From: Acetobacteroides hydrogenigenes
GTDB taxonomy: Bacteria > Bacteroidota > Bacteroidia > Bacteroidales > ZOR0009
DNA: 64,000 nt
Assembly (NCBI RefSeq): GCF_004340205.1
Contig: NZ_SLWB01000001.1
Span: forward strand, 372,001-436,000
Reading direction: 5' to 3'
Positions 57,920 to 64,000 of the stretch are shown here, piece by piece. The translations under genes were made by a program, and so were the position numbers. The notes below the pieces were generated by a model that was not told where the DNA came from, did no database searches, and worked only from the letters and a program-made list of their open reading frames with translations. The number at the start of each line of letters is the position of its first letter. Positions within the stretch are counted from its first letter, which is position 1.

Positions 57920-59086
57920 CTATCCAATATTGGGCGAGGCGTACATCTCCACATCCTCGGCCTTAATCTCCTTTCCGCATAGAATCATTAGGCGTTCTAT
58001 AACGTTACGGAACTCGCGCACGTTGCCCGTCCAGCCCAGCTTTTGGAGCTCGGCAATGGCATCGGCCGTAATCGAGGCACGGGCCATACCGTACTCCGTG
58101 CTAATGGTGTCAATAAAGTGCTCGGCCAGCAAAGGGATATCCTCCTTTCGTTCGGCAAGCGATGGCACATGAATAAGAATGACGCTCAGGCGATGGTACA
58201 GGTCCTCGCGGAAGGAGCCCTTGGCAATCTCCTCGGTAAGGTTCTTGTTGGTGGCGGCCACCACGCGCACGTTAACGGGGATATCCTTATCGCCCCCCAC
58301 TCGGCTGATGCGGTTCTCCTGTAGGGCTCGCAGCACCTTGGCCTGGGCCGAGAGGCTCATATCGCCAATTTCGTCGAGGAAGAGGGTGCCGCCGTCGGCC
58401 TGCTCGAACTTCCCCTTGCGCTGCTTGATGGCCGAGGTAAAGGCGCCCTTCTCGTGCCCAAAAAGCTCGCTCTCGATAAGCTCCGAGGGGATGGCCGCAC
58501 AGTTTACCTCCACATATGGACCGGCAGCACGGTTGCTCTTCTCGTGCAGCCAGCGGGCCACCAGTTCCTTGCCCGTACCGTTGGCCCCGGTAATCATCAC
58601 GCGGGCCTCGGTGGGCGCCACCTTTTCTATGATATCCTTTACGCGCCGTATGGGCGCCGACTCTCCCACAATCTCGTAGGTCTTGTTTACCTTGCTGCGC
58701 AGCTTTTTGGTCTCCTGCACCAGCGAGGTTTTATCCGTAGCATTTCTTAGGGTGATGAGGATGCGGTTCAGATCGAGCGGTTTGGCAATAAAGTCGTACG
58801 CCCCTTTTTTGATGGCTTCTACGGCCGTATCAATGGTGCCATGCCCCGATATCATTACCACGGGCACCTCTGGGGAGATAGCCTGGAGCCTTTCCAGCAC
58901 CTCTATCCCATCCATTCCGGGCATTTTGATGTCAAGAAATACAACGTCGATGCCCCCCTTCTCGAACTGCTCAATTCCTGCAGCTCCATTTTCGGCAAGC
59001 TCCACATCGAAGCCTTCCAAGCTCAGTATATCTTTTAGAGTGCTACGAATAGCTCTCTCGTCGTCTATTACAAGAACTTTTCCCAT
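57920..59086 (-). CDS. Sigma-54-type response regulator lacking a DNA-binding domain
   Basis: 388 residues: receiver domain with phospho-Asp52 (VVFLDIKMPGMDG), AAA+ domain with Walker A GANGTGKE, Walker B GTLFLDEIGD and the sigma-54 contact loop as GAFTSA (canonical GAFTGA). It stops after the AAA+ lid at EDVEMYASPNIG; the Fis-type helix-turn-helix is absent, although the stop is unambiguous. Such proteins activate sigma-54 polymerase from solution or act through partners. It follows the Ppx/GppA gene by 6 nt, so they form an operon. Confidence 0.9.
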   Translation of the reverse strand: MGKVLVIDDERAIRSTLKDILSLEGFDVELAENGAAGIEQFEKGGIDVVFLDIKMPGMDGIEVLERLQAISPEVPVVMISGHGTIDTAVEAIKKGAYDFIAKPLDLNRILITLRNATDKTSLVQETKKLRSKVNKTYEIVGESAPIRRVKDIIEKVAPTEARVMITGANGTGKELVARWLHEKSNRAAGPYVEVNCAAIPSELIESELFGHEKGAFTSAIKQRKGKFEQADGGTLFLDEIGDMSLSAQAKVLRALQENRISRVGGDKDIPVNVRVVAATNKNLTEEIAKGSFREDLYHRLSVILIHVPSLAERKEDIPLLAEHFIDTISTEYGMARASITADAIAELQKLGWTGNVREFRNVIERLMILCGKEIKAEDVEMYASPNIG

Positions 59087-59092
59087 ACTATA

Positions 59093-60010
59093 CTACTTTA
59101 TTTTACCTTCTAACAATTCTACAATAGCCCCCTCCTTCAATGAGTAGTTCGACTGTACCAATCTTCCAATTGCCGTTTTGCGCAAAACCAAGCTGGTAAG
59201 CAGCGAGGCAAGTACAATCATCTCCACACGCAGCTCGTCCATTCCGGCCATAAGCCTTCGCTGCGCAAGCGTACTTTTCAAGAGGCTCTGGTGAAGCGCA
59301 TCGAAAGCATCCATACCAATGCTGCATATTGGCTGGTCGGTGTCGTTTCCAAAGCAGATAACGCTACGATAGGTATCGAAGGCACCACTTGCACCAATAA
59401 GCAGCTCGGGGCAATACTGCTGGCATGCCAGCCATAGAGGTTCGAGTCCCTCTACCAGGAATGATTCGACAGCATTAACCTCCGAAGCCAGCATGGGGTC
59501 GGAAGGCTTAAAGCGCTCCAGCAGACGAGACATGCCCAACGGAAAGCTCTGCTTCCACAGAATGCCGCTGCCGTTGCAGATGATAAACTCGTTACTTCCT
59601 CCGCCGATATCCATTATTAAAGCCCTTCTATCATCTAAGGATACAGATGCCTCAACGCCCTTATAGATAAGTTCGGCCTCGCGCTCGCCCGATATAACCT
59701 CTACATCAACTCCATACTTGCTGATCACCTCGTTTACGAAATTGCCTCCGTTACCTGCCGAACGTATTGCCGACGTGGCGAATGCCTTAACCACCCCAAC
59801 GCCTAGCTTTTTAGAAGCCTCCATATGCTCAGCAATAGCCTGCAGCCCCCGTTGGTAGGCCTTAGGCGCAATTAAACCGCTATTTATGCCACCTTCGCCA
59901 AGCATCACCCCTATTTTGTTGTGGTATATGGTAGAAAAGCCAGCGCCATCAACCTCTACTACAAGCAGGTTGAAGGTGTTGGTTCCCATATCAACTACAG
60001 CTATCCGCAT
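59093..60010 (-). CDS. Ppx/GppA family exopolyphosphatase/(p)ppGpp phosphatase
   Basis: 305 residues of the actin-like ASKHA fold: phosphate 1 loop VVDMGTNTFNLLV, phosphate 2 loop IMDIGGGSNEFII and the catalytic-Glu region ISGEREAELIYKG. It lacks the C-terminal HD domain of long Ppx proteins. It releases phosphate from polyphosphate or pppGpp, linking to the stringent response. Shares an operon with the sigma-54-type regulator downstream. Confidence 0.9.
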   Translation of the reverse strand: MRIAVVDMGTNTFNLLVVEVDGAGFSTIYHNKIGVMLGEGGINSGLIAPKAYQRGLQAIAEHMEASKKLGVGVVKAFATSAIRSAGNGGNFVNEVISKYGVDVEVISGEREAELIYKGVEASVSLDDRRALIMDIGGGSNEFIICNGSGILWKQSFPLGMSRLLERFKPSDPMLASEVNAVESFLVEGLEPLWLACQQYCPELLIGASGAFDTYRSVICFGNDTDQPICSIGMDAFDALHQSLLKSTLAQRRLMAGMDELRVEMIVLASLLTSLVLRKTAIGRLVQSNYSLKEGAIVELLEGKIK

Positions 60011-60224
60011 GCCTACTTTTTTATTCTAAAGATACAGCTTTAATGCGTTCAAAAAAGCGTTGGCCCCACACCCAAATCCACACCTTGCAGATACAGCGCA
60101 GCTCATTATGTAGAAACTTATCCACACTTAGCCCACAACCAAAATAAAAAGTAAAAAAACATTCGCACAATTTTAGTTTGATTTACAATGCCTAACCGAA
60201 CAAAAGACCCACGAGCCCATGCTT

Positions 60225-60239
60225 TGGCACAGTTTTAGT
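60225..60239 (+). promoter_or_regulatory. Sigma-54-like promoter (TGGCAC-N5-TAGT)
   Basis: The -24 element TGGCAC is perfect and the -12 element reads TAGT against consensus TTGC, at correct spacing. Position suits transcription from about 60250. The upstream copy at 60163 has TCGCAC and is weaker. Confidence 0.35.
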
Positions 60240-60249
60240 TTACTTAAAG

Positions 60250-60360
60250 AAATAGACAAGGCTTAGAGTCGTTTTGATATAACAGAACAACGGTTTTGTT
60301 ATAAGAAAGAGAAGAAAGGTTAGGGAAGGGATTTCCGCGAGGTCATCCCTTCTTTTTTTT
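60250..60360 (+). ncRNA. Candidate small RNA of about 110 nt
   Basis: An orphan terminator (60325-60360) has no gene upstream on its strand. Before it lies an 11-bp stem, TATAACAGAAC and GTTTTGTTATA, around AACG, with one G-U pair, then a purine-rich linker (AGAAAGAGAAGAAAGG). A sigma-54-like promoter lies 20 nt upstream of the proposed start. It could be a sRNA or an attenuated leader of the regulator at 60453. No open frame of note lies within it. Confidence 0.4.
60325..60360 (+). terminator. Orphan rho-independent terminator
   Basis: GAAGGGAT and ATCCCTTC pair around a 12-nt loop and are followed by eight T. It lies 93 nt before the next ATG with no gene upstream on this strand. Confidence 0.8.
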
Positions 60361-60452
60361 ATAGAAGCGGCTGGCCATGCTTTAATAGTTTTAAATGATA
60401 GGGTAACATAAGAAAAATACCTTAACTTCGTAAATATTTTCGATTTTAGAAG

Positions 60453-61799
60453 ATGCCTAAAATACTCGTAGTAGATGACGACGCATCATTTTGCTTGATG
60501 CTTAAGTCATTTTTTAAAAAAAACGGAATGGAAGCTGCTGTTGCTTTTAGCCTCAACGATGGTCTAAAGGCTGCAAAGGATTCTTTCTTTGATATTATCT
60601 TAACGGATTATAGGCTACCTGATGGGAATGGGATTGACCTTCTAAACACGATCAAGCGTCACTCTCCAGACACCGTAGTAATCCTTATGACCGGCTATGC
60701 AGATATCAAGATAGCCGTAAACGCCATAAAGATGGGTGCCTACGAATATGTGGCAAAGCCTATAAACCCCGATGAGATAATCCACATCATAAAGAGCGGG
60801 CTAGAGAGCACTTCAAAACGAGTTGAAAAGCCGATACAAAGCAAGAGCCCTGAGTACATCGAGGGGAAATGCGATGCTGCCAAGAAAGTTCAGGACTACA
60901 TAAACCTTGTGGGCCCTACCGAAATGTCGGTGCTCATCCTTGGCGAAAGCGGAACCGGCAAAGAGTACGCAGCACGCCGAATTCATCAGTTCAGCAAGCG
61001 TAAAAACGCCAAGTTCGTAGCGGTAGACTGCGGAGCACTCCCAAAGGATATTGCAGGGAGCGAGCTTTTTGGGCACGTTAAGGGATCATTCACAGGTGCA
61101 GTAAACGACAAAATCGGCCACTTTGAGGAAGCAAATGGCGGCACCATTTTTCTTGACGAGATCGGAAACCTCTCCTACGACGTACAGGTAAACCTACTAA
61201 GAGCTATTCAGGAGCGAAAGATTCGTAGAATTGGCTCTACACAAGAAACATCTATTGACGTTCGCATCATATCGGCCACCAACGAGGATCTGAAGAATGC
61301 GCTAAAAACCGGCGAGTTTAGGGAAGACCTATACCATCGCCTCAACGAGTTTAGCATCAACCTCCCTCCGCTGCGCGAACGCAAGGAAGACCTCATCGAC
61401 TTTGCCAACTTTTTTAAAGACAAGGCTGCACAAGAATTTGGCAAGCAAAACATAGCCTTCGACCAAAACGTTATCGACGTTTTCAAGCGCTACGAGTGGC
61501 CTGGAAATATTCGTGAGATGAAGAACGTTGTTCGCCGCGCAGTTCTGCTAGCGAGCAACAACATTGTAACAACCGATTCGCTTCCCGAAGAGATGCTGGA
61601 ATCTTCGCTAACACCAGCAAGCAGCACCCTAGGCAACGAAACGATAGACCTCCGAAGCATAAAGGAGAAATCGGAGCAAGAATTAATCATCAGCACTATC
61701 GTAAAAGCAAAATACAACAAATCCCAAGCTGCAAAGCTACTTGGGATTGATCGTAAAACGCTATACAATAAGCTCAAGCAATACGGAATTGATATCTAG
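60453..61799 (+). CDS. NtrC-type sigma-54-dependent response regulator
   Basis: 448 residues, complete architecture: receiver with phospho-Asp52 (IILTDYRLPDGNG), AAA+ domain with Walker A GESGTGKE, the sigma-54 loop GSFTGA, Walker B TIFLDEIGN, and a Fis-type HTH at the end (NKSQAAKLLGIDRKTLYNKL). It probably binds upstream sites and activates sigma-54 promoters. The convergent hybrid kinase at 61796 is the likely partner. The gene ends inside a perfect palindrome shared with that kinase. Confidence 0.93.
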   Translation: MPKILVVDDDASFCLMLKSFFKKNGMEAAVAFSLNDGLKAAKDSFFDIILTDYRLPDGNGIDLLNTIKRHSPDTVVILMTGYADIKIAVNAIKMGAYEYVAKPINPDEIIHIIKSGLESTSKRVEKPIQSKSPEYIEGKCDAAKKVQDYINLVGPTEMSVLILGESGTGKEYAARRIHQFSKRKNAKFVAVDCGALPKDIAGSELFGHVKGSFTGAVNDKIGHFEEANGGTIFLDEIGNLSYDVQVNLLRAIQERKIRRIGSTQETSIDVRIISATNEDLKNALKTGEFREDLYHRLNEFSINLPPLRERKEDLIDFANFFKDKAAQEFGKQNIAFDQNVIDVFKRYEWPGNIREMKNVVRRAVLLASNNIVTTDSLPEEMLESSLTPASSTLGNETIDLRSIKEKSEQELIISTIVKAKYNKSQAAKLLGIDRKTLYNKLKQYGIDI

Positions 61800-61822
61800 A
61801 GGCTAGCCTCTAGATATTTTTT
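61792..61822 (+). terminator. Perfect 26-bp palindrome and terminator across two convergent stop codons
   Basis: ATATCTAGAGGCT (61792-61804) is the exact reverse complement of AGCCTCTAGATAT (61805-61817), followed by T to 61822. It contains the plus-strand stop TAG (61797-61799) and the minus-strand stop (complement of 61796-61798), which overlap as CTAG. The hairpin with the T run can terminate the regulator transcript. Confidence 0.85.
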
Positions 61823-64000
61823 CACATCTACCCATAACTTTTGCAGCTCCTCTATTTCACGCTGCACTTCGGAGAGCAGCCTACCATGTCGACATTTTTC
61901 TATTTCGCGGAGGTACTCTACCCCTCTCGTAATTTCAAACTGCCTAAAACCGGTTAGCAACTTATGAGCCCTATCTGCAACAGGCACCTCATTGCCTATC
62001 CTATTGTTGCTTGCAATAAATGCAATTGATTCTTCTGCCGATAAAACAAAAGCATCAATAATCTGCTTAAGCTCCGCCCTATCATTACCAATAAAAGCCG
62101 TCACCTTCGAGATATTGCACAACGGCCTCCTATCCTCCCTAACATCAACTCTTGGAACTTGCATAATATTCGAGATTGCAGTTAATATTTCCCCTTCCGT
62201 AAAAGGCTTTTGCAGTATTCCGTTTGCCCCAATGGCCATCATTTCATTCGTCATCGACGCGCTGACATCTGCCGAAAGGAAGAGCACCTTAGCCAATGGA
62301 TTGTACTCCTTTATAGCTTTAACGGCCTCTATTCCGCTCATGCCGGGCATATGCAAATCGGTTACTACAAGCCCATACACCCCTTTTCTACACATTTCCA
62401 CACCTTTAGCCCCATTATCTGCAATATCAAAACTGATGCCATTTGCTGCAAATATCTTGCTTACAAGGAGCCGAACGTAGCTGTCGTCGTCGATAAAAAG
62501 TACCCTAGACGAAATTGGCTGTGAAGAAATATCTTGACTAAGCGTACTGGCTCCCTCGCTAAGAATATTCGCTAGAGGAAACTCTACGATAAACGTACTT
62601 CCAACGCCTTCTTCCGACTTTAGCAACAGATTTCCTCCCATTAAAACAACAAGCTTACGGCTGATGCTTAGCCCCAAACCTGTTCCACCAAACTTTCGCG
62701 CTACAGACCCATCAGCTTGGGTAAACTCTTCAAAGATCTTCTCCTGAGCTGACATTGGAATACCAATTCCGGTATCAACAACATCTATTCTTAGCTCCTC
62801 TTCTTGTACGTAAACGTTTACAACAACCTCTCCTTGCTCTGTAAACTTTATTGCATTGCTTATCAAGTTAAGCATAACCTGCTTAAGCCTTAACCTGTCA
62901 AGCTTTACCATCGATGGCACTACTCCAAGGTTAAGCACCAAGCTGATCCCTTTCTCCTTGGCTTTAATGCTCATTTCGGTGATGATCTCATTAAAAAATG
63001 CTTCCAAGGGAAACTGAGAGAACTCCAATTCTACGGCGTTAGACTCTACCTTTGAGTAATCTAGAATCTCATTTACAATAGAGTGAAGGTGTTTAGCAGA
63101 GGAGTTAATAGCCATAATCTCCTCTTCGGAATACGTTTTTTTGCTAAGCAGAAAATCGGAAAAGCCCATGATTGCCGAAAGAGGCGTACGAATTTCGTGG
63201 CTCATGTTGGCAAGAAATCTCTCTTTTACCTTCAACAGCTCCTGAATCTTTTCATTCGACTCTTCGAGCTGCTTTTGCATACGAGAGCTTAGCCGTATAT
63301 CCCTAAATATAAGAATCAGAAAAACAACGATCACAAAGAAGGCAGAGAACCCCATAAGTATAAGCTTGTGCATATAGCTATTCGTAGTGCTTTCAAACTT
63401 TGCCAGCTGCTCTCTATTGATGCGTATTTCTTCCTTGCTCATCATCGTAATATGATAAAGCATTCTATCGGTTAGCAGCTTATCCTTCTTAAGGAGCGCT
63501 ATTTCCTGCTGCTTAAAAAGTTTCTCGTTTATTTTATCCCGCTCCTGTAGCATTGCCAGCTTTGATTGCAGCTGTACGATGCTGTTATCCGTCTTCTTTT
63601 GCTTTACCGTTATTGAGTCAACCTTCTTTTGCGCCCCCAAGTGCGACATTATTATCGGAGTTTCGTCTTCCTTAAACAAAGCCTTTAGCCGCTGAAAAAA
63701 GGTACGCTTTCTAACAACCACAGGCTCGGAAGGAGCGTTTGAGCCTAATGTAGAATAAATCCTATGCTTGAGCTCCACTTCCGAACTATCCGATTTCGAT
63801 CTAAAGATTGACTTATAATCGCCCTTGTTTGTCTTTTTATGCTTTAGCGCAATAATATCGTTGATAACCTTACTTTTCTGTCTTTGTATAATAAGGATAT
63901 TACCCAACAAAACCTGCTGTTCTGCATCAATGGATATATTTCTAAGCACTTGAAGACTTGAGTCGATATAGCTGTTTTGCTCTACGTAGCTTTTCAGAAA
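61796..64000 (-). CDS. Hybrid sensor histidine kinase, 5' end outside window
   Basis: The frame is open to the window edge, so the start is not visible; 734 residues are seen. From the N-terminus: an extracytoplasmic or helical sensor part rich in Lys/Gln/Glu, one membrane helix (KLILMGFSAFFVIVVFLILI), a coiled-coil, HisKA with the phospho-His in NMSHEIRTPLSAI (codon near 63198), HATPase (NLISNAIKFT, DTGIGIP, GGTGLGLSIS), a receiver (VLFIDDDSY, VVTDLHMPGMSG) and an HPt-like domain (RAHKLLTGF). A multi-step phosphorelay kinase; its convergent neighbour is the likely output regulator. Confidence 0.9.
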   Translation of the reverse strand, partial: FLKSYVEQNSYIDSSLQVLRNISIDAEQQVLLGNILIIQRQKSKVINDIIALKHKKTNKGDYKSIFRSKSDSSEVELKHRIYSTLGSNAPSEPVVVRKRTFFQRLKALFKEDETPIIMSHLGAQKKVDSITVKQKKTDNSIVQLQSKLAMLQERDKINEKLFKQQEIALLKKDKLLTDRMLYHITMMSKEEIRINREQLAKFESTTNSYMHKLILMGFSAFFVIVVFLILIFRDIRLSSRMQKQLEESNEKIQELLKVKERFLANMSHEIRTPLSAIMGFSDFLLSKKTYSEEEIMAINSSAKHLHSIVNEILDYSKVESNAVELEFSQFPLEAFFNEIITEMSIKAKEKGISLVLNLGVVPSMVKLDRLRLKQVMLNLISNAIKFTEQGEVVVNVYVQEEELRIDVVDTGIGIPMSAQEKIFEEFTQADGSVARKFGGTGLGLSISRKLVVLMGGNLLLKSEEGVGSTFIVEFPLANILSEGASTLSQDISSQPISSRVLFIDDDSYVRLLVSKIFAANGISFDIADNGAKGVEMCRKGVYGLVVTDLHMPGMSGIEAVKAIKEYNPLAKVLFLSADVSASMTNEMMAIGANGILQKPFTEGEILTAISNIMQVPRVDVREDRRPLCNISKVTAFIGNDRAELKQIIDAFVLSAEESIAFIASNNRIGNEVPVADRAHKLLTGFRQFEITRGVEYLREIEKCRHGRLLSEVQREIEELQKLWVDVKKYLEASL

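Follow-up and report, generated by a model that had tools for sequence, protein, structure and literature searches.

The intergenic region at positions 60011–60452 of the window (the whole 64,000-nt stretch of Acetobacteroides hydrogenigenes DNA analysed here) is flanked by genes for a Ppx/GppA phosphatase and an NtrC-type response regulator, and contains a predicted small non-coding RNA gene behind a putative sigma-54-type promoter. On the sequence evidence, we hold with moderate confidence that the unit at 60252–60360 encodes a trans-acting small RNA, which would be transcribed from the sigma-54 promoter, activated by the adjacent regulator and used as the RNA output of a two-component system. 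The chances appear evenly balanced that this RNA represents an uncatalogued family serving as the sigma-54-driven output of the adjacent two-component system in a member of the Bacteroidota without recognisable Hfq. The features of the locus are listed in Table 1.

Table 1. Coordinates of the predicted small RNA gene, its control elements and the neighbouring genes in the window.
Feature	Position	Strand	Description	Basis
Ppx/GppA family phosphatase	59093–60010	−	divergent upstream neighbour of the RNA	Pfam and synteny
Sigma-54-type promoter, TTGGCACAGTTTTAGTT	60224–60240	+	−24 element TGGCAC at 60225–60230; degenerate −12 element at 60236–60239	
Small non-coding RNA gene (predicted)	60252–60360	+	~109 nt	start placed by conservation and by the distance to the promoter
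5′ block, ATAGACAAGGCTTAGAGTCGTTTTG	60252–60276	+	100% identity in three species	
11-bp hairpin	60278–60303	+	variable in the 5′ arm and loop, invariant in the 3′ arm	
Hairpin 3′ arm and purine-rich linker	60295–60322	+	candidate interaction site; 100% identity in three species	
Intrinsic terminator	60322–60360	+	stem of 11 pairs with two further pairs inside; loop region CCGCGAGGTCA invariant; run of eight T	
Bacteroidota-type −7 element, TAACTTCG (predicted)	60423–60430	+	assigned to a promoter belonging to the activator gene; 95% conservation across three species	
NtrC-type response regulator	60453–61799	+	REC, sigma-54 AAA+, HTH_8	Pfam
Hybrid histidine kinase with REC	61796–64000	−	convergent; extends past the window end	Pfam

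The initial annotation had described an eight-T terminator without an upstream gene, preceded by an 11-bp hairpin and a purine-rich linker, and had proposed a stand-alone RNA of about 110 nt. All of these elements were located within 60278–60360, no long ORF was observed upstream on the same strand, and the proposal of a stand-alone RNA was supported; the ~109-nt unit is conserved in both sister species. The linker occupies 60304–60320, and the 11-pair terminator stem (60322–60355) runs into eight T residues at 60353–60360; a simple terminator scan missed this structure, presumably because of its loop limit of 8 nt. The fold of the predicted RNA gave a z-score of −4.1, with none of 200 dinucleotide shuffles being equally stable. 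The unit contains no open frame and no ATG, and a reading as a small ORF was ruled out by in-frame stops and by non-triplet gaps in the three-species alignment. By prediction, the unit thus combines the properties of a trans-acting small RNA gene, namely a promoter of its own, a terminator and no ORF.

The unit was compared with its counterparts in two other species of the genus, G001 and G002. Over about 109 nt, it was 92% identical in G002 and 86% identical in G001. A homology search with the DNA of the unit gave long matches confined to these two species, the remaining matches being short and weak. Both copies were found at the orthologous site between ppx/gppA and the activator gene, and the order ppx–RNA–activator–kinase was syntenic in all three species. 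Identity by region, calculated as the mean identity to the window in the three-way alignment, was 0.37 in the upstream flank (60150–60223), 0.89 in the −24 box TTTGGCACA and 0.40 in the following segment (60232–60251), rose to 1.00 in each of the two invariant blocks (60252–60276 and 60295–60322), and was 0.56 in the hairpin 5′ arm and loop, 0.89 in the terminator, 0.69 in the spacer between the terminator and the activator promoter, and 0.95 in TAACTTCGTA. The conserved block therefore begins where a start is expected from the −24 box and stops at the T run; this conservation in three species, with edges that are sharp at the predicted start and at the terminator, argues for a small RNA.

Non-conservation of the hairpin and the −24 element had been set as a refuting result in the initial annotation, and it applies by half: the −24 element was conserved, whereas the central 11-bp hairpin was kept only in part, several of its pairs being broken in G001. 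No compensatory base change was observed at any pair, three sequences being too few for covariation. The covariance search in related genomes that had been suggested at the same time recovered the three genus members at 124–136 bits, but among 393 genomes of the order all further matches scored about 34 bits or less and were treated as chance. The same model detected nothing at 32 loci around orthologous activators of other families, and an exact 25-mer had no match in a genome contig collection that may omit the nearest genomes. Within the spacer, a 28-nt stretch at 60377–60404, ATGCTTTAATAGTTTTAAATGATAGGGT, is identical in the window and G002 and partly kept in G001; it is possibly a regulator site.

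The TGGCAC-type −24 element and the partial −12 element noted in the initial annotation were both found in the positions given in Table 1, and they probably form a sigma-54-type promoter, the orthologous promoters scoring higher than that of the window. The predicted RNA starts about 27 nt downstream of the −24 element TTGGCACA. The −12 position reads TAGT in the window, where GC is expected at the end; G002 has the GC at this place, while the window has GT and G001 has TC, so that the −12 element is degenerate in two of the three species and weakest in the window species, and the full GG-N10-GC spacing pattern is present in G002 only. Counterparts of the deviating forms are found among E. coli sites, with GT in pspA (TTGTA) and TC in glnH (TTTCA) (PMC4591121). 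With a position-specific scoring matrix derived from E. coli ChIP-seq data (36 intergenic sigma-54 sites; PMC4591121), we obtained scores of 10.0 for the window promoter, 12.7 for that of G002 and 14.0 for that of G001, values reached by 17 of 127,968, by two and by none of the window positions, respectively. All three fall inside the leave-one-out range of the true E. coli sites (5.4 to 20.8, median 15.9), which places the window promoter at the weak end. When a simpler consensus score was summed over the three species at a common offset, none of 5000 shuffles reached it; kinship among the sequences overstates the independence of this result, though identity in the flanks has fallen to 37%. 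The occurrence of matrix matches 26–28 nt before the RNA start in all three species argues for transcription by sigma-54. An 18-nt near copy (16/18) of the promoter element, TTCGCACAATTTTAGTTT, was observed at 60162–60179, at a distance of 62 bp from 60224 on the upstream side. With a low matrix score (4.7) and no evident equivalent in G001, it may represent a regulator site or a second, degenerate promoter.

RpoN was identified in all three genomes (PF04552 above the cut-off), and that of the window genome carries an intact RpoN box, ARRTVAKYRE. Canonical TTGGCAC-N5-TTGCW sites were not enriched over a reversed-pattern control in these genomes, which implies that the sigma-54 regulon is small or that its consensus is looser. 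Pfam confirmed the earlier statement that the neighbouring gene encodes an NtrC-type activator with a helix-turn-helix: the protein contains the REC, sigma-54 AAA+ and HTH domains of this class, with a GSFTGA variant at the GAFTGA loop position, and shares 93% and 82% identity with its sister-species orthologues. The hybrid kinase gene adjoins the activator gene, in an unchanged position in G001 and G002, and its product is likely to be the partner of this response regulator. In several other families (L058, L060, L061 and L064), the activator orthologue, as read by eye, appears to come immediately after a gene that ends in receiver and Hpt-like sequence; this arrangement would favour pairing of the regulator with a hybrid kinase. 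On the other side of the locus, a second NtrC-type protein (57920–59086, minus strand; REC, AAA+ and lid) adjoins ppx/gppA and has no DNA-binding domain recognisable by Pfam. Of 60 relatives covered by a search, most gave matches limited to residues 1–375 of the query, so HTH-less sigma-54 activators seem to be widespread in the order.

Searching the window against Rfam at gathering and relaxed thresholds matched no family, including GlmY, CrcZ and Qrr. Matches to PyrR and BTnc231 were at chance level, and the match to GibS (RF04182) was rejected: it reached 24.2 bits (gathering score 115; E 0.12–0.31), aligned poorly and was not listed for the sister-species copies. GibS, from Bacteroides, is likewise a Bacteroidota small RNA with an intrinsic terminator. 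Closer likenesses are found in gene arrangement. The gene glmY is sigma-54-dependent and lies directly upstream of the two-component genes qseE-qseG-qseF, which include that of a sigma-54-activating regulator (PMC8745638, PMC3162934). The enterobacterial GlmY with GlrK/GlrR (QseE/QseF) thus resembles the present locus in that an sRNA gene stands beside its sigma-54 activator system, but it belongs to another phylum and differs in gene order and kinase orientation. In the Pseudomonadaceae, the RpoN-dependent sRNA gene crcZ adjoins the activator gene cbrB of the CbrA/CbrB system (PMC6292655), as the RNA gene adjoins the activator gene here. CrcZ, however, is encoded downstream of cbrB and antagonises Hfq–Crc, whereas no Hfq was found in the window genome. 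In Vibrio, LuxO is a sigma-54 activator adjoining qrr1, and the Qrr sRNAs act with Hfq. Activation of the Qrr sRNAs by the response regulator of a phosphorelay is reported (PMC7602753) and corresponds to the mode of control proposed here. By sequence, the predicted RNA is not a member of these families, and its resemblance to GlmY and CrcZ is one of arrangement. The precedents of glmY/qseEGF and cbrB-crcZ argue for an sRNA controlled by the adjacent activator. No report of a sigma-54-dependent sRNA in the Bacteroidota was found in the openly licensed literature.

Considering adjacency and these precedents together, we propose that the hybrid kinase would phosphorylate the response regulator, which would then activate the RpoN holoenzyme at the promoter upstream of the RNA. 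Transcription from this promoter, which sequence and conservation support, would yield a trans-acting small RNA that would use one of its invariant blocks to pair with targets in an Hfq-independent manner, Hfq having been found in none of the three genomes; the RNA would thereby constitute an RNA output arm of the kinase/regulator system. A search for complements of the two invariant blocks with up to three mismatches, which covers long, nearly perfect pairing only, gave no target common to the three genomes. In the window genome, the start of the coding sequence of an aquaporin-like gene (L220) matched at 18/20 within the first codons; this match was not found in the sister species and was treated as chance, and duplex energies between the RNA and the activator mRNA were set aside, since the method ignores internal structure.

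That the neighbouring activator controls the RNA is our inference, and the two genes form a syntenic pair in all three species. A real small RNA activated by a different enhancer-binding protein, such as the HTH-less protein at 57920–59086 or a distant one, is an unlikely arrangement, for adjacency of the RNA and the regulator is kept in the three species and local control has precedent. It would nevertheless accord with the presence of at least 4–6 NtrC-type proteins per genome, with the finding of no conserved palindromic activator (enhancer) site upstream of the promoter, and with the existence of activator orthologues in other families without the RNA; no consistent sigma-54 site was detected upstream of those orthologues. 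We consider it improbable that the RNA is transcribed with another sigma factor and that the TTGGCA box is a −33/−35 element or a regulator site. The TTTG within the box and the degenerate −12 element in two of three species would fit such a promoter, but no TANNTTYG element occurs at a suitable spacing, none being present from the −24 box up to the start of the RNA, and by the matrix, which includes the −12 element, every window position ranks below the G001 site, and all except two rank below the G002 site. The poor −12 element of the window species does count against sigma-54-dependent control by the adjacent regulator, as do the lack of canonical-site enrichment, of a conserved palindromic site, of compensatory changes and of a conserved near-complementary target.

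It is similarly improbable that the RNA serves as a 5′ leader to the activator mRNA, with the terminator controlling read-through as in an attenuator. The RNA lies on the strand of the activator gene and ends 92 nt before its start codon, the terminator is strong, the spacer is 69% conserved, and glmY shares an operon transcript with qseEGF in P. mirabilis (PMC8745638). Here, in contrast, the conserved TAACTTCG that follows the terminator is predicted to belong to a promoter of the activator gene itself. TANNTTYG elements occur at 2.8 per kb upstream of genes versus 0.67 per kb in the whole window (four times), and this density, together with the conservation of TAACTTCG, makes a separate promoter for the activator gene probable. 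Moreover, no leader or riboswitch family of Rfam was matched, and no alternative anti-terminator was seen. The unit at 60252–60360 is therefore best read as a gene separate from the activator mRNA, with occasional read-through of its terminator into the activator gene being possible. Finally, it is highly improbable that the block is conserved, non-transcribed DNA, such as a cluster of binding sites, next to a chance terminator: the block is known from three genomes, but a paired terminator stem and T run are kept in all three, the fold has z-scores of −4.1 and −4.4 in two species, and the block edges coincide with the promoter and the terminator.

An sRNA gene beside its own sigma-54 activator seems to be a recurrent arrangement, exemplified by GlmY and CrcZ and known so far mainly from the Proteobacteria. 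If the small RNA reading is true, this arrangement would occur outside that group and would seem to have arisen independently in the Bacteroidota. Little is known of the sigma-54 regulon in this phylum, whose small RNAs operate with no evident Hfq. The present locus, in which a conserved RNA and its predicted sigma-54 promoter adjoin a kinase–activator pair, offers a compact test case for both questions.
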